From positions 4,464,001 to 4,528,000 of the forward strand of contig NZ_CP107947.1 in the NCBI RefSeq assembly GCF_036059255.1: 64,000 bases of DNA. The letters are read 5' to 3'. Shown piece after piece: positions 4,901 through 31,051 of the stretch (its first letter is position 1; every line of letters starts with the position of its first letter). Both the position numbers and the translations under genes were made by a program. The notes under the pieces were generated by a model. The model did not search any database and was not told the origin of the DNA. It saw nothing but the letters and a program-made list of their open reading frames with translations. The stretch comes from Micromonospora sp. NBC_00389. Its GTDB lineage: Bacteria > Actinomycetota > Actinomycetes > Mycobacteriales > Micromonosporaceae.

Positions 4901-5930
4901 AGGCGTGTTTCATAAGCCGGTCAGAGCCACTCGGTGATGATCGTGATGGTGAGAACGGCTTGGAAGCGGACTGCCAGCTTGTCGTAGCGGGTGGCGACGC
5001 CGCGGTGGCGTTTGAGCCGGTTGATGCCGTTCTCCACGGCGTGGCGTAGCCGGTAGAGGTCCTTGTCGAACGCGGGTGGGCGGCCACCCTTGGAGCCTTT
5101 GGCCTTGCGATGGGCGTCCTGGTCGGTCTTGCTGGGGATGCAGGCCTGGATCCCGCGTGAGCGCAGATGACTGCGGTTGCCGCGGCTGGTGTAGGCCTTG
5201 TCGGCCAAGACCAGGTCGGGGCAGGTGCGGGGTCGACCCACGCCGAGGCGGGTCACATGGATGCGGCGCAGGACGGGGATGAACTGCGGGCTGTCACCAC
5301 GGTGCCCGGCGGTCACGATCAGGGAGAGGACCTTCTGTCCCTGCTCGCAGGCCAGATGAGTCTTGGTGGTCAGCCCGCCGCGCGATCGGCCCAGCGCGTG
5401 ATCGGCCGGCTCGTCGTGCACCCCGCCGGGCGGCTCCTTCTGCAGATGCCCGTCGGTGCGGGCTCCGGCGGCGTGCTGGTGGGCGCGGCTGGTCATCGAG
5501 TCCACGCTCACCGTCCAACCGATCCGGCCGGTCGCGTCGCCAGCGGCTTGCAGCGCGGACAGGATCTTGTCCCAGGTTCCGTCACGCTGCCAGCGGCGGA
5601 ACAGGCCGTAGACGGTGGGCCAGGGCGCGTACTCGGACGGGACGTCACGCCACGGGGCACCGATCCGGATCCGCCACCGGATCCCGTCAATGAGCTGTCG
5701 TTTCTTCCACTTCGGCGGACGACCCGTCCTCGGCGCGGCAGGCAGCAACGGAGCCAGAACAGCCCACTGCCCGTCGGTCAGGTCATGCCGCCTCGTCACC
5801 GCTACGCTGGGCACGAGGTCTCCGGTATGAAGTTCTTGCTTGGTCGCAGAACCAGTTACCGGAGACCTCTTCAGCTGTCGATCACCGCCACGCGGTGACT
5901 TCGATCAGACTCCACTTTTGAAACACGCCT
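4901..5930 (-). mobile_element. IS5-family (IS427-like) insertion sequence, copy 1
   Basis: The 1030-bp element has terminal inverted repeats AGGCGTGTTTCA at both ends and a TA target duplication (4899-4900 and 5931-5932) inside an original CTAG. It carries one transposase gene on the minus strand. A second 1030-bp copy in the opposite orientation lies at 32596-33625, with a one-residue difference in the transposase. Precise reconstruction of the interrupted gene shows that the insertion is recent relative to that gene's decay. Confidence 0.95.
4921..5814 (-). CDS. IS5-family transposase
   Basis: The protein has 297 residues in a single frame. The N-terminal DUF4096-like domain reads R-H-D-L-T-D-G-Q-W-A-V-L-A-P-L-L-P. 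The DDE core shows a D in W-T-V-S-V-D-S-M, a second in L-A-D-K-A-Y and the final E in RLRHAVENGINRLKRHRGVA. It would catalyse cut-and-paste movement of the surrounding element. The start is a GTG. It differs from the copy at 32712-33605 by A versus V in L-L-P-A-(A/V)-P-R-T. It appears intact. Confidence 0.95.
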   Translation of the reverse strand: MPSVAVTRRHDLTDGQWAVLAPLLPAAPRTGRPPKWKKRQLIDGIRWRIRIGAPWRDVPSEYAPWPTVYGLFRRWQRDGTWDKILSALQAAGDATGRIGWTVSVDSMTSRAHQHAAGARTDGHLQKEPPGGVHDEPADHALGRSRGGLTTKTHLACEQGQKVLSLIVTAGHRGDSPQFIPVLRRIHVTRLGVGRPRTCPDLVLADKAYTSRGNRSHLRSRGIQACIPSKTDQDAHRKAKGSKGGRPPAFDKDLYRLRHAVENGINRLKRHRGVATRYDKLAVRFQAVLTITIITEWL

Positions 5931-7747: not shown

Positions 7748-8014
7748 CGGCATCACGTGCTGGACAAAGGCATCCACCACGCCTACATCAAGCCACGAAC
7801 GCTGCGGCTCAACGGCAAGGTGGAGAGATCCCACCGCATCGACGCCGAGGAGTTCTACCGGATGCTCGACGGTGTCGTCATCGACGACGCCCAAGTCTTC
7901 AACGACAAGCTCCGCGAATGGGAGGACTACTACAACTACCATCGCCCCCACGGCGGCCTCGGCGGCCAAACCCCCTACGAACGCCTCAAGCAAAAGACCA
8001 CGACCCAGGCGTAA
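7748..8014 (+). pseudogene. IS481-family transposase C-terminal fragment
   Basis: About 88 residues are readable: LDKGIHHAYIKPRTLRLNGK, V-E-R-S-H-R-I-D-A-E-E-F-Y, then Y-N-Y-H-R-P-H-G-G-L-G-G-Q-T-P-Y-E-R-L. This is the end of the rve integrase core of IS481 transposases, including the last catalytic glutamate (K-V-E-R-S). The HTH and first two catalytic aspartates are absent, so it is non-functional. It is unrelated in sequence to the IS481 beta-domain fragments at 27485 and 31638. Confidence 0.85.
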
Positions 8015-8052: not shown

Positions 8053-8550
8053 CTAGTCCCACCACCTGCTTGACGAATCCGTCCCAGCACATGCACGACA
8101 GTCGGCCTTGGTTCCTCGGTCGTCCTGGTTACAGTCGGTGACATCTGAGCGCCTGCGCGCGCACTCAAACTCAGGCAGAGAACGAACCAATGCCGCCAAG
8201 ACGCCATGCACGAGGGGAAGGCCGCCCAGCTCGCTGATCCCGATCCATGCGATGTCGTCATGCTCGTCAGGTGCACGGTTGGTCGGAGAGCCAACCCAGT
8301 CTCCAATTTGCCAGACGCCCACGTGAACGGCGTCCTCACCACTGCCGGCATGCAAGACGCCCAGCCGTGAAGCGGACTCGGCCACAATGTGGACACCGAG
8401 CTCCTCGTGCATCTCACGCGCGAGGGCTTGTAGTTCCGACTCACCCGCTTCGACCTGCCCCCCGGGCAGATCCCAGACATCTGGGTATACCCGTTTGGTC
8501 GGCCTGCGGTGTACTACAGCGGTTGAAAGTCTGGGGTCTGTTTCGGTCAT
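8053..8550 (-). pseudogene. Nudix hydrolase, 3' portion with IS-derived start
   Basis: From 8514 down to 8053 the frame encodes HRRPTKRVYPDVWDLPGG and a perfect Nudix box (G-Q-V-E-A-G-E ... A-R-E-M-H-E-E-L-G-V). It is therefore MutT-like, hydrolysing a nucleoside-diphosphate-linked substrate. The first 17 native codons are missing; they lie at 16165-16213 beyond the composite transposon. The frame stays open into the IS630 terminus, where an ATG at 8550 overlaps the transposase stop (ATGA). It would add the IS-encoded residues M-T-E-T-D-P-R-L-S-T-A, so a chimeric protein may still be made. Confidence 0.88.
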
Positions 8551-9035
8551 AGTGGTTCCGGTTCCAGGCTGAGTCCGGTCTGGGCGAGGAACCCGGGGAT
8601 CAGGTCCGGTCGGTACTGAATGCGCTTGAGTCGGTTGCGGATGATCGCGGCGAGGTGGTCCACGCCGTCGACGGCCAGGTTGCCCAGGCTGGACTTCACC
8701 GTTGACCACAGGCCCTCGACCGGGTTGAGGTCGGGTGCGTACGCGGGTAGCTGGACCACGGTCAGCCACCGGTGGCGGGCGGCGATGAGCTGGCGCATCA
8801 GTGCGCTGGTGTGGGTGTTGACCCCGTCCCAGATCAGGATGATCGGGGCGTGGAGCTGGCGGTGCGCGGCGGTGACCAGGGTGGCGTAGTCGTCCTCGGA
8901 CAGGCTGCGGCGTTCGCCTTTGCGTCCGCGGTGGACGCGGAGGCGGTAGAAGACGTGGCCGCGCTGGCCGGGCTTGTAGGAGATCAGTCCGGCGATCGAG
9001 ACCCGACCCGAGCCCTTGCCGTTGACCCGCACGGT
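8517..9035 (-). pseudogene. IS630-family transposase, 3' remnant
   Basis: The 3' end of the element at 14965-16162 is repeated here in the opposite orientation. It encodes VNGKGSGRVSIAGLISYKPG through to L-S-L-E-P-E-P-L and includes the last two catalytic acidic residues (W-D-G-V-N and L-N-P-V-E-G). Homology stops near 9035 at C-C-C-A-C-C-G-T-G-C-G-G, so the helix-turn-helix half and the inner terminal repeat are gone. On its own it cannot transpose, but the remaining outer end can be used in trans by the intact copy. Confidence 0.92.
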
Positions 9036-9178
9036 GGGGCGTCTCCCGAGCGCCGGGGGCCGGCCGCCGCCTCGAGGGCGGCGACCCGGTCGGGGTGACC
9101 GTGGAAGCGTCGCCAGCCGTAGACCACGAGCGCCAGGGTCACCACCCCGGAGACCATGTGGCTGACCCCGGCCCAGAG
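9036..9178 (-). pseudogene. Membrane-protein C-terminal fragment
   Basis: In a minus-strand frame, LWAGVSHMVSGVVTLALVVY followed by G-W-R-R-F-H-G-H-P-D-R-V-A-A-L-E reads like a final transmembrane helix with a basic cytosolic tail. It runs straight into the broken edge of the IS630 remnant. I do not recognise the family. It may be the truncated last gene of the cargo operon. Confidence 0.35.
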
Positions 9179-9194
9179 CCCCGGGCAGCCAGGT

Positions 9195-9638
9195 CTACGA
9201 GGGCAGCGCCCACCATCGCGGCTGCTTCGGCGACCACACCCACGGCAGGCCCGCCAGCGTGTTGGCCAGGGTGATCACGAACAAGCAGACCGCTCTGGTC
9301 AGCGTCCGCACGCCATGGGCCACCTTCACCAGCGCACGGCGCTTGAAGCTGTGCACGCGCTCGGCCGCCCAGGGGTGGTGCTTGGCCAGCGTCGCCATCC
9401 CCAGCGCGAGCAGGAGCAGGCCCGGCCCGGGGAGGGGGAACAACAGTGCGCCGGCGACCAGCTGCACCCAGCCCAGCGCGGTGAACACGGTGCGCTGGCT
9501 GAACGGGCGACCCGGGCGGGCGGAGGACCGTGGGTCCGGCACCAGCGCGAGCTCGACCGGCCGGCCGGGGGCGGCGGCCGGCGTGCGGAACGGCGGCCCA
9601 CCGGGGATCTCCCGGTGGGCCGCCTGATTCTCCGTCAT
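9195..9638 (-). CDS. PGPGW-type small transmembrane protein
   Basis: This 147-residue protein has a Pro-rich N-terminal tail and one long hydrophobic hairpin with the family motif in variant form (GALLFPLPGPGLLLLALGMA). Basic residues and a last hydrophobic helix follow (A-V-C-L-F-V-I-T-L-A-N). The PGPGW family consists of small actinobacterial and proteobacterial inner-membrane proteins of unknown role. It starts 22 bp after the stop of the propeller/phosphatase gene and is the fourth gene of the cargo operon. The conserved final W of the motif is replaced by leucine here. Confidence 0.75.
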   Translation of the reverse strand: MTENQAAHREIPGGPPFRTPAAAPGRPVELALVPDPRSSARPGRPFSQRTVFTALGWVQLVAGALLFPLPGPGLLLLALGMATLAKHHPWAAERVHSFKRRALVKVAHGVRTLTRAVCLFVITLANTLAGLPWVWSPKQPRWWALPS

Positions 9639-9660
9639 GGGATCCGTCAGTGACGCGACA

Positions 9661-12453
9661 TCAGTCGACGTCGGTGCCGGGCAGGGCTGCGCCCGGGACG
9701 TCCTTCGGCAGGTAGATCTTGGAGTCGCCCGGGTAGGGCAGGTCCCAGTTGTGGGCGCCGTACCACGTGTACCGGTTCATCAGCGCCGGGTTCGCGTAGT
9801 CGGCCTGCGCCCACTTGCCGGTGAGGCGCTGCTTGGACACCCACTTGTCCCACTCCTCCGAGTAGGAGACGAAGTTCGCCGGCACCGGGCCCTGGAGGGC
9901 GGCCGCGTTGGCGCCGGTCGGCGTGTCGAGGCCGCACGCGGGCGCGGTGTTGATGTTCTCGGTCAGCGAGATGTTGTTGGCCTTCGCGGTGTACGGCGTG
10001 AAGTCGGCCTTGGGCGTGAAGGCGTCGTACATCGGGGTGGCCGCGGCGACCTTCTGGTTCAGCGGCTCCGCGCCCAGGATCTGCTCGATGGTGCGGACCA
10101 TGTTGATCTGGGAGTAGTAGGTCGAGACCGTCTTGCCGTGGACGGCGTAGGGGCTGATGACCTGGATCGGGGCCCGGTGGCCGTCGACGTGGTCAGGGCC
10201 GGCCTGGCTGTCGTCCTCGACCACGAAGATCGCGGAGTCCTTCCAGTACGGGCTGTGCGAGATCGTCTCGACGATCTTGCCCAGGGCCAGGTCGCCACCG
10301 GCGACGTTCGACCGCTGCGAGACCGGACCACCGGTGTGGTCGTCGGAGAGCCACACCATGTTGAACTCGGCCGGACCGTTCTTCTCGAAGTCCTGCTTCC
10401 AGATCTGGTACCGGTACAGGTCCGGGATCTGCATGTCGAACGGCGGTGCCTCCGGGACGGTGATGTCGTTGAGCGACGGGATCGGGGAGCCGTAGTCGCC
10501 CTTGAGTGCGGGGCTGGTCAGCTGCGCCGGGTCGCCGCCGGCCTCGACGGACTGGTTGGCGCAGTAGTACTGCTGCCAGGTCGAGCCGGCCGGCTTGCCG
10601 CTCGAGGAGTAGACGAACTCGCCGAAGTTCTTGGCGGTGTGGCCGGCGTCCTGGACGGCGGTCCACAGGAAGCCCGAGCGCTGGTGGCCCAGCACATCCT
10701 CCTGCGTGTCGTAGCTGCGGACGTACTCGCCGGCGCTGGACTCGGTGTACTCCGGGTTGTCACCCTGCATGATCCAGTTGTGACCCTCGGCGGAGTTGGT
10801 GCCGACGTCGTAGGTGTTGTCGTAGAGACCGAACTGGCGCGAAAGCGCGTGGATGTTGGGCGTGACCTGCTCGCCGAACTGTGCCAGCGACGGGTCGCCG
10901 TTGCCCTCGGGCATGTCGCCGTGGACCTGGTCGTAGGTGCGGTTCTCCTTGACCAGCATGAAGACGTGCTTGATCGTGGAGTGGTCACCGATGCGCCGGG
11001 GCACGGGGCGGGGCGCCACGTTGCTGCCCGGGACGGCGCGCTTGACGTCGCTGTCCGCGCCGCCCCAGCCGTTCTGCTTGAAGACCTGCGGGGTGTAGGT
11101 GTCCCTGATCTCGCTGTCGGAGGGGAGGGTGAAGCGGGTCAGCGAGGCGGTCGTGGCGTGGGTGCCGTGGCCGGTCGCCGGGGTGGTGCCGAAGCCCTGG
11201 TTGTAGGTGATGGCCGGGCCCCGGGCGTCGATGCCGCGGCGGTTGGCCACGACGATCTGGTCGTCGACCGCGAAGACGTCCTCGGGGTAGTAGTCGGTCG
11301 GGACGAGGCCGACGTAGCTGACCGGGTCGAGCGCGCTCTCGCCGAGCTTGTAGACGGCGATCGCGTTGACGCGGCCGAGGCTGACGAGCAGACGGCCGTT
11401 GTACACGGCGATCGCGTCGGGCTCGTAGCCGACCTCCGAGCTCTGCCAGGGCTTGGTCTCGATCGTCTGGACGACCTTGTCCGTGGTGGTGTCGACCACC
11501 GAGATGGTGTCGTCGTTGGTGTTGGCCACGTAGAGCGCGCTGCCCTCGAGGTGCATGTCGGTCGGGTGGAGACCGACCTCGATCTGGCCGATGGGCGCCG
11601 CGGCGTTGGCCGTGTCGATGACGCTGAGGACACCGGTGGTCGAGGTGCCGAGCACCGGGTCCGCCGGGACGTTGGTGCCGTAGGACTTGATGGTGTCCTC
11701 ACCCGGCTGGGCCAGGCGGCCGCCCTCGTCGCTGACGTAGAGCTTGGTGCCGACGAACTTCAGCTGACGCGGCGCGATGCCGACGGGGTAGGTCGCCTTG
11801 ATGGTGCCGGCAACCGGGTCGATCGTGACCACCGAGTTCTGGCCGTTGACGGCGGCGTACAGCGTGCTGCCGTCGGGCGAGAACGTCATGCCGGCGGTGA
11901 GCGCCTGACGGGTGGGGCCGGTCAGGTTGGGGATGGCGATCTTGGTGCCGGCCGCCAGGGTGCCGTCGGCGTTGACCGGGAACCGGGTGATGCCGGTCGC
12001 GTTCGGCATGAAGAGGAACTTGCCGTCGGGGGAGTAGAGGGGGCTCTCCTGGCCGACGGTGTTGTCGGACGGACGCAGGTTGGCGCCCGAGGCGGTGCCC
12101 GCGCGGAAGATCAGGTGGTAGGTCTCCAGGTCGAAGATCTGCAGCGAGATCGACCGGTCGTTGGCGGTCGCGGCCAGGAAGCGGCCGTCGGGGCTGATCG
12201 TGGAGCCCATGAACTTGCCGTAGTTGGTCACGAGCCGCTCGCCGAGCGGCTTGATGATCTGGTTGGAGGAGACCTGCAGGCCGTCGGTGTACTCCTCGCC
12301 GACCAGATTCTCACCGAAACCCATGGTGGAACCGTAGGCAACACCACCCGTAATGACCGCGAGGGCCACGCCGCCGGCCACGAGGCCGGTGGGCAACGAG
12401 CGCAGGAGGCGACGACGAGGCCGCTTCACGACGCGGTTGCGCCTTACATTCAT
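9661..12453 (-). CDS. Secreted YncE-type propeller / alkaline-phosphatase-superfamily protein
   Basis: The protein has about 930 residues. A basic N-terminus and one hydrophobic segment (LVAGGVALAVITGGVAYGST) form a signal or anchor. Residues ~60-460 hold repeated beta-propeller blades (F-S-P-D-G-S-T-L-Y-A-A-V, LYVANTNDDTISVVD). The C-terminal half is a phosphoesterase domain with H-V-F-M-L-V-K-E-N-R-T-Y-D-Q, G-H-N-W-I-M-Q-G-D and FVVEDDSQAGPDHVDGHRAP, the metal-binding residues of the phospholipase-C/phosphatase fold. I chose the ATG at 12453, where AGGGA is correctly spaced; a GTG at 12468 overlaps the preceding stop. It is co-transcribed with the ABC transporter genes. Substrate unknown. 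Confidence 0.88.
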   Translation of the reverse strand: MNVRRNRVVKRPRRRLLRSLPTGLVAGGVALAVITGGVAYGSTMGFGENLVGEEYTDGLQVSSNQIIKPLGERLVTNYGKFMGSTISPDGRFLAATANDRSISLQIFDLETYHLIFRAGTASGANLRPSDNTVGQESPLYSPDGKFLFMPNATGITRFPVNADGTLAAGTKIAIPNLTGPTRQALTAGMTFSPDGSTLYAAVNGQNSVVTIDPVAGTIKATYPVGIAPRQLKFVGTKLYVSDEGGRLAQPGEDTIKSYGTNVPADPVLGTSTTGVLSVIDTANAAAPIGQIEVGLHPTDMHLEGSALYVANTNDDTISVVDTTTDKVVQTIETKPWQSSEVGYEPDAIAVYNGRLLVSLGRVNAIAVYKLGESALDPVSYVGLVPTDYYPEDVFAVDDQIVVANRRGIDARGPAITYNQGFGTTPATGHGTHATTASLTRFTLPSDSEIRDTYTPQVFKQNGWGGADSDVKRAVPGSNVAPRPVPRRIGDHSTIKHVFMLVKENRTYDQVHGDMPEGNGDPSLAQFGEQVTPNIHALSRQFGLYDNTYDVGTNSAEGHNWIMQGDNPEYTESSAGEYVRSYDTQEDVLGHQRSGFLWTAVQDAGHTAKNFGEFVYSSSGKPAGSTWQQYYCANQSVEAGGDPAQLTSPALKGDYGSPIPSLNDITVPEAPPFDMQIPDLYRYQIWKQDFEKNGPAEFNMVWLSDDHTGGPVSQRSNVAGGDLALGKIVETISHSPYWKDSAIFVVEDDSQAGPDHVDGHRAPIQVISPYAVHGKTVSTYYSQINMVRTIEQILGAEPLNQKVAAATPMYDAFTPKADFTPYTAKANNISLTENINTAPACGLDTPTGANAAALQGPVPANFVSYSEEWDKWVSKQRLTGKWAQADYANPALMNRYTWYGAHNWDLPYPGDSKIYLPKDVPGAALPGTDVD

Positions 12454-12464
12454 CTGCATTCCCT

Positions 12465-13820
12465 TCACTTTGTAGTTGCCAGCAGGTCAACGACTCCGTC
12501 GAACTGCCACAGCGGGTTCGGTCGGTCACCCAGGGGGGTGGCGACCTGGAAGAACCCGTTGACCTGGATTGGCCCGTCGCCGTCGGCGACGTACCGTCCG
12601 TCCGCGGTCACCTCGAGCTGATAGATCGCGTCGGCGGTCGCGGTCGCACCAGGGAGGGTCCACGTCACGACGCAGCGCCAGTCGGCGCCCGGACCGTGGT
12701 CCTCGACGCGCTCCCCGGCCTTGTCGCACTTGGCCGTGGCGTGGAGCTGCTCCTCGGTGACCGCCTGCCGGTTGAGCTGCTCGGTCTGCAGGACGTACAG
12801 GTGCGAGAACGACGTCGCCAGCGAGGCCTCGAGCTTGGGCCGCTCGATGCCCGTGCCGGTGGCACCCGTGGTCACGGCGACGACCACGGTCGTGACCGCG
12901 GCCAGGCCCGCCAGCGGGGCCAGACCCGCGACCAGGAAGCGGCGGCCCATGCCGTCGTAGGCCAGGTCGGTGAAGTCGCGACGCACGAAGAGCCGGTAGG
13001 CGAGGTAGGTGGCCAGCGCCGTCCAGGCCAGGCTGACGGCGAGCCCGATCCACAGCGACCCGAGCTGACCTGGGGCCATGAAGAGGCCGCGGTAGGTAAT
13101 GAAGGCGTTCATCGGCGTCGCCACCCGGAGCGCCACCGGGACCGGCATCAGCTGGACACCTTCGAGGATGAGCGCGATGACCACCGGCATCAGTAGGCCC
13201 AGCGGGGAGCGCCCCAGCGCGACCGACCCGAGCAGGCCGACCGCGGAGAAGGCGAGCGTGGGCGGGACGATGGTCAGCCAGCCGAGGAGGACCGTCCGGG
13301 TGAGCTCACCGGAGTCCATGATGTGCCCGTCCAGTCCCGGCATCGGCTGGGTGCCGAGCGCCAGCAGGCCGCCGGCCAGCGACGACACGAGGAGTGCGGC
13401 GAGAAGCGCCAGGGTGACGGTGAGCGCGGCCATCGCCTTGGACACGAAGATCCGGCGCGGCGAGCGCACCGCGACCATCAGGTGCCGCCACGTGCCGAGC
13501 CGGTCCTCGACGGCGAAGACGTCACCGGCCACGAGACAGGTGAGCAGGGGCAGCACCAACGTGCCCATGAAGACGAGGATGACCAGGGAGCCCGCCCAGC
13601 CGGACTGGTTCATCCAGCGGCCGTAGACCGCGTCGGCGGGAAGGGAGGTCTGCTGGCTGATCACCGCCGTGTAGATGGCCGGGGCGAGCAGGCACGCCAG
13701 GAAGACCAGCCGGACGCGCCACTGCGAGACCAGCTTGACCAGCTCGAACGTGTAGCAGCGGCTCAGCGCCACGGGCTGTGGCTGCGTGCGGACGGGGGCA
13801 TCGACGATGGCCGCGGTCAT
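12465..13820 (-). CDS. ABC transporter permease with extracytoplasmic C-terminal domain
   Basis: This is a 451-residue ABC-2-like membrane protein. The first ~300 residues contain seven or so hydrophobic segments after a cytosolic start (C-Y-T-F-E-L-V-K-L-V). The last ~140 residues, after a transmembrane helix (LAGLAAVTTVVVAVTTGATG), are hydrophilic with two cysteines (A-K-C-D-K and W-R-C-V-V) and predicted beta strands, so they probably face outside. ATG 13820 overlaps the stop of the ATPase gene (ATGA), and its own stop overlaps the possible GTG of the next gene. The transported compound is unknown. Confidence 0.85.
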   Translation of the reverse strand: MTAAIVDAPVRTQPQPVALSRCYTFELVKLVSQWRVRLVFLACLLAPAIYTAVISQQTSLPADAVYGRWMNQSGWAGSLVILVFMGTLVLPLLTCLVAGDVFAVEDRLGTWRHLMVAVRSPRRIFVSKAMAALTVTLALLAALLVSSLAGGLLALGTQPMPGLDGHIMDSGELTRTVLLGWLTIVPPTLAFSAVGLLGSVALGRSPLGLLMPVVIALILEGVQLMPVPVALRVATPMNAFITYRGLFMAPGQLGSLWIGLAVSLAWTALATYLAYRLFVRRDFTDLAYDGMGRRFLVAGLAPLAGLAAVTTVVVAVTTGATGTGIERPKLEASLATSFSHLYVLQTEQLNRQAVTEEQLHATAKCDKAGERVEDHGPGADWRCVVTWTLPGATATADAIYQLEVTADGRYVADGDGPIQVNGFFQVATPLGDRPNPLWQFDGVVDLLATTK

Positions 13821-14824
13821 CGGGAGGTCTCCTGGAGGTCGGGGGTGGAGGCAGGGCTGATGTCGGCGTCTGGGCCGGGGTCGGTGTCGGCGTCGGCGCC
13901 GGTGAGCGCCAGGAAAGCGGCCTCCAGAGGGGGCACGACGGGGCCGAGCTCGCGGACCGCGATGCCCGCGCCGACGAGCCGGGCGACCAGGTCGTCGAGG
14001 GCCGGCTCCGGGCCCCGCACGACGACCGACTGGTCGTCGTACTGCGACTGCGACTTCCGGCCCGCGACCTGGCTCAGGCCCGGGATGTCGTCGGCGAGCC
14101 GGCGTGCGCCGTCGGCGTCGGTCGTGACGAGCCGGTAGTCGAGCTCGCCGCTCTCCGTGGCCAGCTTGTGCACCGGGCCCGAGAAGACGACCCGGCCGGT
14201 GGACAGCAGGGTGACGTCGTCACAGAGCGCCGCGAGGTCGTCCATGCGGTGGCTGGAGAGGACCACGGTGCCGCCGGCCTCGGCGAGGTCGGTGAGGACC
14301 TGGTGGACCTGTCGCTTGCCGGCGGGGTCGAGGCCGTTGGCCGGTTCGTCGAGGACCAGCAGACGCGGCTCGCCGAGCAGGGCGGCGGCCAGCCCGAGGC
14401 GCTGCCGCATGCCGAGCGAGAAGCCGCGGACGCTGTCACCCGCCACCTCGGTGAGCCCGACCCGGTCGAGCAGCTCGTCGACGTCGGCGGAGCGGCCGGC
14501 GCCGCTCCGCAGGGAGACCAGGGCCTTAAGGTTCTGGCGCGCCGTCAGCTCGGGATACAGACCGGGGCCGTCCACGAAGCCCGTGACGCCGCCGGGCACC
14601 GACAGGATGCGCCCGACCGGTGAGCCGAGGATCTCCAGTGAGCCGCCGTCGGCCACCGCCAGGCCCAGCAGCATGCCCAGGAGAGTGGTCTTGCCGGCGC
14701 CGTTGGGCCCGACGAGCCCGTGGATCTGCCCCTCGGGGAGGTCGAGATCGACCCCGTCGAGGGCGATGACGTCGCCGAAGGTCTTGGTGATGCCGCGCGC
14801 ACGAACGGCAGCAGCTGGTTGCAT
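13817..14824 (-). CDS. ABC transporter ATP-binding protein
   Basis: This ATPase has Walker A (G-P-N-G-A-G-K-T-T), Q-loop region, signature-like F-S-L-G-M-R-Q-R-L, Walker B (L-L-V-L-D-E-P-A-N-G-L-D-P) and the switch histidine (V-V-L-S-S-H-R-M). An extra ~90-residue C-terminal domain is typical of ABC-2 exporters. I start at ATG 14824 (M-Q-P-A-A-A-V); an upstream open reading adds only non-conserved residues. It is the first gene of the cargo operon, followed directly by its permease. The signature S-L-G-M-R replaces the canonical L-S-G-G-Q, as is common in this subfamily. Confidence 0.92.
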   Translation of the reverse strand: MQPAAAVRARGITKTFGDVIALDGVDLDLPEGQIHGLVGPNGAGKTTLLGMLLGLAVADGGSLEILGSPVGRILSVPGGVTGFVDGPGLYPELTARQNLKALVSLRSGAGRSADVDELLDRVGLTEVAGDSVRGFSLGMRQRLGLAAALLGEPRLLVLDEPANGLDPAGKRQVHQVLTDLAEAGGTVVLSSHRMDDLAALCDDVTLLSTGRVVFSGPVHKLATESGELDYRLVTTDADGARRLADDIPGLSQVAGRKSQSQYDDQSVVVRGPEPALDDLVARLVGAGIAVRELGPVVPPLEAAFLALTGADADTDPGPDADISPASTPDLQETSR

Positions 14825-14964
14825 CGGGGTTTCGTCCCATCTGGCCGCGAGCAGCCAAAAACAGTTGCCAACTCCAACTTCCTTCGACGGCGAAGCTAAG
14901 GAGGCCAGATGACCTGACCCGATCGATTTGCTGAACGTATTGCAAACGTCCAACCAAACGCCTA
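14825..14964 (-). promoter_or_regulatory. Probable promoter region of the cargo operon
   Basis: The 140 bp between the ATPase start and the IS630 end must hold the operon's native promoter unless an IS promoter is used. Two inverted repeats are visible: AGTTGCCAACT at 14863-14873 and TTTGC-N10-GCAAA at 14927-14946. Either could bind a repressor. No matching regulator gene is present in the block. Confidence 0.4.
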
Positions 14965-16162
14965 CAGCGGTTGAATGGCCGGGGTCTGGTCTGGCTTGTC
15001 ACATGTGATCAACCACTATGGACGTCTGGTCAGCTTGGATCTATGCCTGGGGTATGAGGTACGCCGATAGTGGTGGCCTGTCCGCTGCGGGACGGGCCAA
15101 GCGGGAGCAGGTACGGACGCAGGCCGCGCGGATGTTCGCCGTCGATGTGCCGGCGACGCAGGTCGCGGCCCGGCTACGGGTCTCGACGAAGTCGGTCTAC
15201 CAGTGGCGGCGCCGCTGGCGCACGGGTGGAATGACAGCCCTGGCCTCGACCGGGCCCGGTGGAAACGTCTCCCGGCTCTCGCCCGACCAGCTGCTGCGGC
15301 TACAGGCCGAGTTGGACCTCGGCCCGGCGGCACACGGCTGGCGCGAGGACCAACGCTGGACCCTGGCCCGGGTCGCCACCCTGATCGGCCGACTGTTCCA
15401 TGTCTCCTACACCCTCCGCGGCGTGTCCTATCTGCTGCACCGCATCGGCTACACCCCGCAGGTGCCCAAACATCGGGCGACCCCACGCGACGAGGACGCG
15501 ATCGCCGCCTGGCGGGCCACCACCTGGGCGAAGGTACGAGGCTAGCGGCGGCGACCGGAGCGTGGATCGTCTTCGAGGACGAGGCCGGACAGACCCTCCG
15601 CCCGCCCAGGGCCCGCACCTGGGCCCGCAAGGGCCACGCACCCACCGTGCGGGTCAACGGCAAGGGCTCGGGTCGGGTCTCGATCGCCGGACTGATCTCC
15701 TACAAGCCCGGCCAGCGCGGCCACGTCTTCTACCGCCTCCGCGTCCACCGCGGACGCAAAGGCGAACGCCGCAGCCTGTCCGAGGACGACTACGCCACCC
15801 TGGTCACCGCCGCGCACCGCCAGCTCCACGCCCCGATCATCCTGATCTGGGACGGGGTCAACACCCACACCAGCGCACTGATGCGCCAGCTCATCGCCGC
15901 CCGCCACCGGTGGCTGACCGTGGTCCAGCTACCCGCGTACGCACCCGACCTCAACCCGGTCGAGGGCCTGTGGTCAACGGTGAAGTCCAGCCTGGGCAAC
16001 CTGGCCGTCGACGGCGTGGACCACCTCGCCGCGATCATCCGCAACCGACTCAAGCGCATTCAGTACCGACCGGACCTGATCCCCGGGTTCCTCGCCCAGA
16101 CCGGACTCAGCCTGGAACCGGAACCACTATGACCGAAACAGACCCCAGACTTTCAACCGCTG
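14965..16162 (+). mobile_element. Complete IS630-family insertion sequence
   Basis: This 1198-bp element has terminal repeats starting CAGCGGTTGAA at both ends and an inner match GGGGTCTG. TA is present on both sides (14963-14964 and 16163-16164), the IS630/Tc1-mariner target. It encodes one transposase spread over two frames. It forms the right boundary of the composite block. Confidence 0.93.
15054..16132 (+). CDS. IS630-family transposase (two overlapping frames)
   Basis: The first frame carries a winged helix-turn-helix (QVAARLRVSTKSVYQWRRRW) and a second HTH-like region (WTLARVATLIGRLFHVSYTL), and ends at TAG 15543-15545. The DDE domain (I-V-F-E-D-E-A-G-Q, I-L-I-W-D-G-V-N-T-H, Y-A-P-D-L-N-P-V-E-G) continues in the -1 frame to 16132. 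Split IS630 genes of this kind are usually expressed by programmed -1 frameshifting; a one-base indel is the alternative. I do not see a strong slippery heptamer at the overlap. ATG 15054 (M-R-Y-A-D-S-G-G-L) matches the family start better than ATG 15018. Confidence 0.88.
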
Positions 16163-16164
16163 TA

Positions 16165-16213
16165 GCAGGACCGCGCCGTTTTCAACGAGTGCGCCTGTGA
16201 CGACGACATGCAT
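16165..16213 (-). pseudogene. Displaced 5' end of the Nudix gene
   Basis: On the minus strand ATG 16213 starts M-H-V-V-V-T-G-A-L-V-E-N-G-A-V-L and then C+TA, completing a leucine codon. Together with the sequence left of 8515 it gives A-V-L-L-V-H-R-R-P-T-K-R, the first beta strands and lead-in of a Nudix domain. This identifies the fragment and dates the block's insertion as a single event. Confidence 0.88.
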
Positions 16214-30060: not shown

Positions 30061-30135
30061 GGGCTGCCGGCGATGTCGGGTCTCAGGACGTCCGTGACAG
30101 ATCAGTCTCGGGACGTGGGTGACACGTCCGGCTAG
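30061..30135 (+). repeat. IS481 terminus, copy 3, attached to the transposase start
   Basis: This third copy of the 75-bp end abuts the HTH fragment at 29787-29987. Its outer edge C-C-G-G-C-T-A-G is interrupted by the IS5-family element starting at 30135. Confidence 0.82.
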
Positions 30136-30161
30136 GGCGTGTCCTGCCGATCTTGTAGTGG

Positions 30162-31051
30162 TTGATCGTTGACGATGTGCCGGTGGTGCGTCGTGGTGAG
30201 TTGACCGATGAAGCGTGGGCGGTGATCGCGCCGCTGCTGCCGGAGCCGGGCGGTGCGCGGGGGCGGTGGCGCGATCACCGTCAGGTCGTTAACGGGATCT
30301 TGTGGAAGCTGCGGACCGGTGCGCCGTGGCGTGACCTGCCCGAACGGTATGGGCCGTGGAAGACCTGCCATGAGCGGCTGCGGCGCTGGACGGCCGACGG
30401 GACGTGGGATCGGATCCTCGCGGCGGCACAGGTGCATGACGACGGGACACCGGTGCAGTGGACGATCAGCGTGGACTCGTCGATCGTGCGGGCGCACCAG
30501 CATGCCGCTGGCGCCCGCAAAAAGGGGGCTCCGCAACACGTGCGGCGACGCCTGGTACGCAAGATGGCGAGGCCATCGGCCGATCCCGCGGCGGGCTGAG
30601 CACGAAGATTCACCTCGCCGTCGACGGACGCGGCAGGCCGCTGTCGATCCTGCTCACTCCCGGCCAGGCCGGCGACAACCCTCAACTGTTGGCGTTGCTG
30701 GACGCGATCTGCGTCAACGAGCCCGGACCGGGTCGACCCCGCAAACGTCCCGAGGTGCTGATCGCGGACAAGGGCTACGCGCACGACTCGACCCGCCGAG
30801 CGTTGCGTCACCGCGGGATCCGGCACGTCATCCCCGAACGATCCGACCAGGTCGCCCGCCGCGCCGCCAAGGGCAGCAACGGCGGGCGGCCACCAGCCTT
30901 CGACAAGGCGATCTACCGCAAGCGCAACGTCGTGGAACGCTGCTTCAACCGGTTCAAGCAATGGCGTGACCTGGCCACCCGCTACGCCAAACGCGCATCT
31001 CTCTACCGCGCCAGCCTCGTCCTCATCGCCGCCATCATCTGGCTTCCATGA
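30162..31051 (+). CDS. IS5/IS427-group transposase (two frames, -1 shift)
   Basis: The first frame has the N-terminal domain (GELTDEAWAVIAPLLPEPGG) and first aspartate (W-T-I-S-V-D-S-S-I-V). It reaches A-A-G-A-R-K-K-G-A and runs on to a stop at 30599. The second frame continues with S-R-G-G-L-S-T-K-I-H-L-A, the second aspartate (L-I-A-D-K-G-Y-A) and the glutamate (RKRNVVERCFNRFKQW) to 31051. They meet at AAAAAGGGGG (30519-30528), a strong -1 slippery run in the right register, so a fused active transposase is likely. Confidence 0.9.
30519..30528 (+). promoter_or_regulatory. Slippery sequence for programmed -1 frameshift
   Basis: Five A's followed by five G's lie exactly where the two transposase frames overlap. 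Shifting back one base joins R-K-K-G to G-S-A-T-R and on to the DDE core. Programmed frameshifting is established for IS427-group elements. Confidence 0.75.

Follow-up and report, generated by a model that had tools for sequence, protein, structure and literature searches.

A probable IS630-family composite transposon with two right ends interrupts a MutT-like Nudix gene in Micromonospora

The stretch of DNA analysed here (the window; 64,000 nucleotides of Micromonospora sp. NBC_00389, contig NZ_CP107947.1, positions 4464001-4528000) holds a Nudix gene split by a block in which a transporter/phosphoesterase operon lies between a partial and a full-length IS630 copy (Table 1). The element proper extends from 8517 to 16162 (7,646 bp) and is flanked on either side by TA. 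Its extremities form a perfect inverted repeat of 525 nt with 100% complementarity (arms 8514-9038 and 15641-16165), which is not a product of chance. As read, the arms span C-TA and TA-G because the target is the palindrome CTAG, and the element proper begins 3 nt inward.

Table 1. Features of the interrupted Nudix locus and of the inserted block, in window coordinates.
Feature	Position	Strand	Evidence or remark
Nudix hydrolase, 3' part, Nudix box and left TA included	8053..8516	-	PF00293, E 2.6e-15
Left copy of duplicated TA target	8515..8516	.	CTAG in 9/19 relatives
Partial IS630 copy: right (IRR) half with intact outer end	8517..9042	-	in 525-nt arm
PGPGW/TIGR02611-like membrane protein gene	9043..9638	-	PF09656, E 7.5e-13; TIGR02611 under cut-off
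Phosphoesterase-domain protein with beta-propeller repeats, 935 aa	9661..12468	-	PF04185, E 6.9e-10; PF07676, E 3.6e-7
ABC-2 type permease, 451 aa	12465..13820	-	PF12730, E 1.1e-7
ABC transporter ATPase, 335 aa	13817..14824	-	PF00005, E 7e-28
TA at inner boundary of right IS copy	14963..14964	.	uninterrupted TA in G048
Full-length IS630 copy, 1198 bp; IRL inner, IRR outer	14965..16162	+	PF13592 / PF13358
Right copy of duplicated TA target	16163..16164	.	sequence at junction
Nudix gene, 5' part, 16 codons from start plus one base	16165..16213	-	joined frame agrees with relatives

On the minus strand the right half of the Nudix gene (16213-16165) encodes MHVVVTGALVENGAVL plus one base, and via one TA it runs on in frame as LVHRRPTKRVYPDVWDLPGGQVEAGE..., giving a single open frame as in relatives. 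In a profile search the left half alone covers positions 21-119 of PF00293 (NUDIX), with the E-value given in Table 1, and the match of an intact relative (L018) starts at profile position 2 (E 5e-19); the best solved-structure match of the gene product is MutT2/NUDIX 5zrc (E 1.1e-14). In all 19 same-genus loci fetched, the two flanks (left of 8516, right of 16163) adjoin each other directly. The junction tetranucleotide in these loci is CTAG in nine (L017-L022, L024-L026), CCAG in seven and CGAG in three, i.e. the TA present on both sides here is present once in 9 of the 19 relatives, as befits a TA target duplication. With an intact relative as query, a broader search (160 Micromonospora genomes, E 1e-60 or better, up to three candidates scored per genome) found the gene in 64 genomes, and 67 of the 70 matching places cross the junction uninterrupted; among the remaining three, the copy in the window is the sole split one, and those in G007 (contig C5) and G145 stop short of the junction and are thus uninformative.

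These comparisons agree with an earlier note made from the letters of the window, which had joined the right-flank minus strand to the left flank in frame through one TA, had expected Nudix homologues to align over the junction, as they do in 19 of 19 loci, and had proposed a search of relatives for the empty site, which the 67 uninterrupted places supply. The contrary finding that it had envisaged, a relative carrying the cargo at this locus without IS630 ends, did not turn up among the 70 places. The host also has a second, uninterrupted copy of the gene with 89% identity (G000:C1:4426103-4426573) and, therefore, loss of the interrupted copy may be tolerated. CTAG contexts account for 47 of the 874 TA sites in the window. 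Just left of the Nudix gene lies an integrase-core fragment (PF13683 rve_3, 7757-8014) that is probably left over from another insertion sequence, and an IS4/IS5-type transposase (PF13340, PF01609) is found at 4921-5814.

The terminal inverted repeats of the right IS630 copy comprise 27 nt at 89% identity with the CTA counted in, as is typical of the IS630 family. The two outer ends of the block are identical to each other at 40 of the first 40 nt compared, whereas each has 15 mismatches in 40 to the inner IRL of the right copy in an ungapped comparison, and both outer ends are therefore IRR. The claim of the earlier note that the same IS630 terminal repeat lies inverted, with a TA outside, at both block boundaries is thus borne out by the perfect arms. 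Its further claim that the left copy has since lost its inner 5' part holds as regards the loss: approximately 526 of 1198 bp are kept, the inner end is gone and the alignment extends to 9042 with one gap. The word "since" is unsupported; because a composite needs its outer ends only, the truncation may predate the insertion. In total, two related IS copies, one of them partial, surround genes that are dispensable for transposition. A search of the single-contig host genome recovered only the full copy, the left fragment and one relative at 68%, and with so few copies present the IS probably arrived together with the cargo.

The full copy has two overlapping transposase ORFs (15018-15545 and 15203-16132), both open. 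They carry the helix-turn-helix and DDE_3 parts that characterize IS630 transposases (PF13592, E 5.7e-23; PF13358, E 1.1e-21), and NF033545 (IS630 transposase) is the top match of both, with 74.1 and 92.1 bits against a full-length cut-off of 100. We considered that the transposase might be broken by an internal stop and disfavour this reading, since the TAG that ends the first ORF occupies the same alignment column in all seven relatives displayed, which were picked from 25 loci examined and the closest of which (L043) has further frame breaks. The conserved position of the stop suggests instead that the transposase is more likely made by a predicted programmed frameshift, as has been proposed for ISHsp2. 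CTA/TAG flanks are seen in three of the seven related elements displayed (L043, L045, L053); the rest are without them or unreadable. A stretch of 95 bp at 30132-30226 of the window has 93.7% identity to sequence adjoining an IS630 relative in G020 (L156 7121-7215).

In 48 of 80 named actinobacterial loci the phosphoesterase gene is immediately preceded, as in the cargo, by those for the ATPase and permease; 30 of the 80 have no permease at that place, and a few of the 30 are truncated at contig ends. The simplest reading is that the cargo encodes a transporter coupled to a cell-surface phosphoesterase. A role in defence was considered and set aside: PADLOC matched the ATPase only and returned no family for the other three proteins. 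The PGPGW-type gene has a reading frame unlike that of its copy in G057, with integrity uncertain in both, and no counterpart of positions 9043-9126 was found in the other loci compared.

The earlier note had suggested looking for the 7.6-kb block elsewhere. The cargo was found, at 95-98% identity and in other contexts, in three of the 151 genus genomes searched (G057, 97%; G123, 95%; G048, 96-98% on two contigs), and no further site with the complete composite was detected in 160 genus genomes. In 350 family genomes, which include most of the 151, the other cargo matches longer than 2 kb among those listed have 68-71% identity and weaker ones 65-66%, short ATPase stretches reach up to 81%, and G148 has a 218-bp cargo remnant at 95%. 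The flanks of the cargo in G057, G123, G048 and G148 are all unlike those in the window. We rejected the idea that the cargo is a discrete element with fixed ends of its own, given that its left limits vary (window position 9127 in G057, 9535 in G048 and 9560 in G123) and that G048 and G123 stay collinear past the right limit. A match was present in 18 plasmid records, none of which contains 80% of the block. The cargo is adjoined by fragments of a Mutator-type and a TnpB-type transposase in G123 and by integrase-like ORFs in G048 and, therefore, other mobile DNA is nearby in these two genomes. In G057 (L151 7279-8174) an ArsR-type regulator and, as judged by eye, an arsenate-reductase-like sequence lie beside the cargo; G148 (L155) has kept much of this flank and lacks nearly all of the cargo.

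In a phosphoesterase tree of 38 rows (37 selected loci and the window), the window clusters with G057 and G123 (100/100), Nocardioides luteus adjoins this group with values below the usual bar (94/93), all of these fall within a six-row set that also includes N. iriomotensis and an Aeromicrobium MAG (99/97), and six resident Micromonospora versions fall apart from the window group. Based on this placement among Nocardioidaceae, the operon was most simply acquired from a Nocardioides-like donor. Approximately 1 kb beyond the end of the window, G000:C1:4529036-4529592 matches the 3' part of the phosphoesterase gene of the cargo at 71% and is perhaps a remnant of a resident version.

The comparison genomes also bear on the inner boundary of the right IS copy. 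In G048 the TA corresponding to 14963-14964 is unoccupied and approximately 130 nt beyond it are collinear with G123, suggesting that the right IS630 probably inserted there by an ordinary insertion; G123 has CTCA at this position and lacks the TA, so that, of the two genomes compared, G048 alone has the empty TA. G057 (...CCTAG...) was dropped as an empty site in favour of G048, which serves better as the unoccupied reference: just past the TA of G057 lie approximately 32 bp (L151 14154-14185) that resemble the terminus of another element, one that G148 has in two places, and then other DNA. The inner-boundary TA is a dinucleotide that was hit twice, or a hot spot.

Combining the two IRR outer ends with the TA duplication and the empty site, we are confident that the block is a composite transposon, bounded by two IS630-family right ends in inverted orientation, that entered the TA of a CTAG in a MutT-like Nudix gene in one cut-and-paste insertion. 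The same three observations support the proposal of the earlier note that one transposition event brought in the cargo. The outer target duplication is seen directly and the single event is deduced from the types of the ends and the empty site; as no second insertion site was found, movement of the whole unit is likewise deduced from one insertion. We suggest the following sequence of events: (i) the cargo operon would have passed from a Nocardioides-like donor to Micromonospora, (ii) the right IS630 would earlier have inserted at the TA beside the cargo operon, (iii) a second IS630 end would have been present on the other side of the cargo, (iv) the transposase of a full copy would have used the two outer IRR ends and carried along all the DNA that they enclose, and (v) the unit would have entered the CTAG of the Nudix gene.

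How the second end arose is a separate question. The left fragment could have been copied in inverted orientation from the end of the right copy, by template switching beside the cargo before the unit transposed, a scheme that addresses the formation of the composite and not its insertion as one unit. It would account for the 100% identity of the arms along 525 nt, as against a difference of approximately 3% between the cargo and its nearest relative, and for the lack of a second full IS copy in the genome. The identity is accounted for no less well by a recent second insertion with a subsequent deletion, or by homogenised arms, and we regard template switching as unlikely, albeit worth keeping in mind. 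Far less probable is that a single IS630 inserted in the Nudix gene first and that the cargo and a second end were added later by recombination. Islands are often assembled piecemeal and the genome has one full copy only, as such a history would have it, but a simple insertion filled later would leave IRL and IRR outside and both outer ends are IRR; an extra inversion or exchange would be needed that kept the TA pair and the frame of the gene exact, and this history is largely refuted by the identity of the ends. An assembly artefact at the repeats formed by the arms is least credible of all, because the genome is one contig of 7,870,275 bp with 99.99% completeness, close IS copies number two only, the flanks, put together, restore exactly the gene of the relatives and, at most, the cargo would be flipped between the arms.

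Returning to a composite inserted as one unit, recombination between its identical arms could flip the cargo, and left and right are therefore not fixed properties of the element. The more ambitious idea that the pairing of a half copy with a full copy acts as a functional mobile unit spreading the Nocardioides-derived operon in Micromonospora, in which the 525-bp arms flip the operon and the full IS swaps sides, is in our opinion rather improbable.

The mechanism is of an already known kind and leaves accepted mechanisms unchanged. The locus offers a clean natural IS630-type composite in a CTAG of an actinobacterium, set in a gene that is uninterrupted in many relatives; it would also be a natural example of a half-length IS copy used as one transposon end, and of a simple element by which a foreign operon may be moved within a genus. 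The portion of the open-licence literature covered yielded no published report of this element or of IS630 in Micromonospora. Tenzen and Ohtsubo, in a study of 1991 known by its title, reportedly described an IS630-associated composite transposon with preferential transposition to the TA in 5'-CTAG-3'. To go by that title, both elements are IS630-associated composites and use the TA in CTAG, whereas the present one is natural and actinobacterial, has a truncated left copy and carries transporter/phosphoesterase cargo.

Two further systems provide points of comparison, as described in the available parts of their reports. ISY100, of the IS630/Tc1/mariner family, duplicates a TA target and moves by cut-and-paste, as proposed for the present element (PMC2170065). 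Mini-transposons with 30 bp of each ISY100 end moved in vitro as well as the full element (PMC2170065). Truncation of the left copy therefore need not prevent movement, and half an IS copy can suffice as an end. ISY100 has a single transposase gene and the part of the report available describes no composite, in contrast to the two ORFs and the composite structure here (PMC2170065). ISHsp2, of the IS630 family, duplicates TTAA, unlike the present TA, but like the present element has its transposase in two ORFs, for which a translational frameshift was predicted, and may potentially form composite transposons (PMC3606827).
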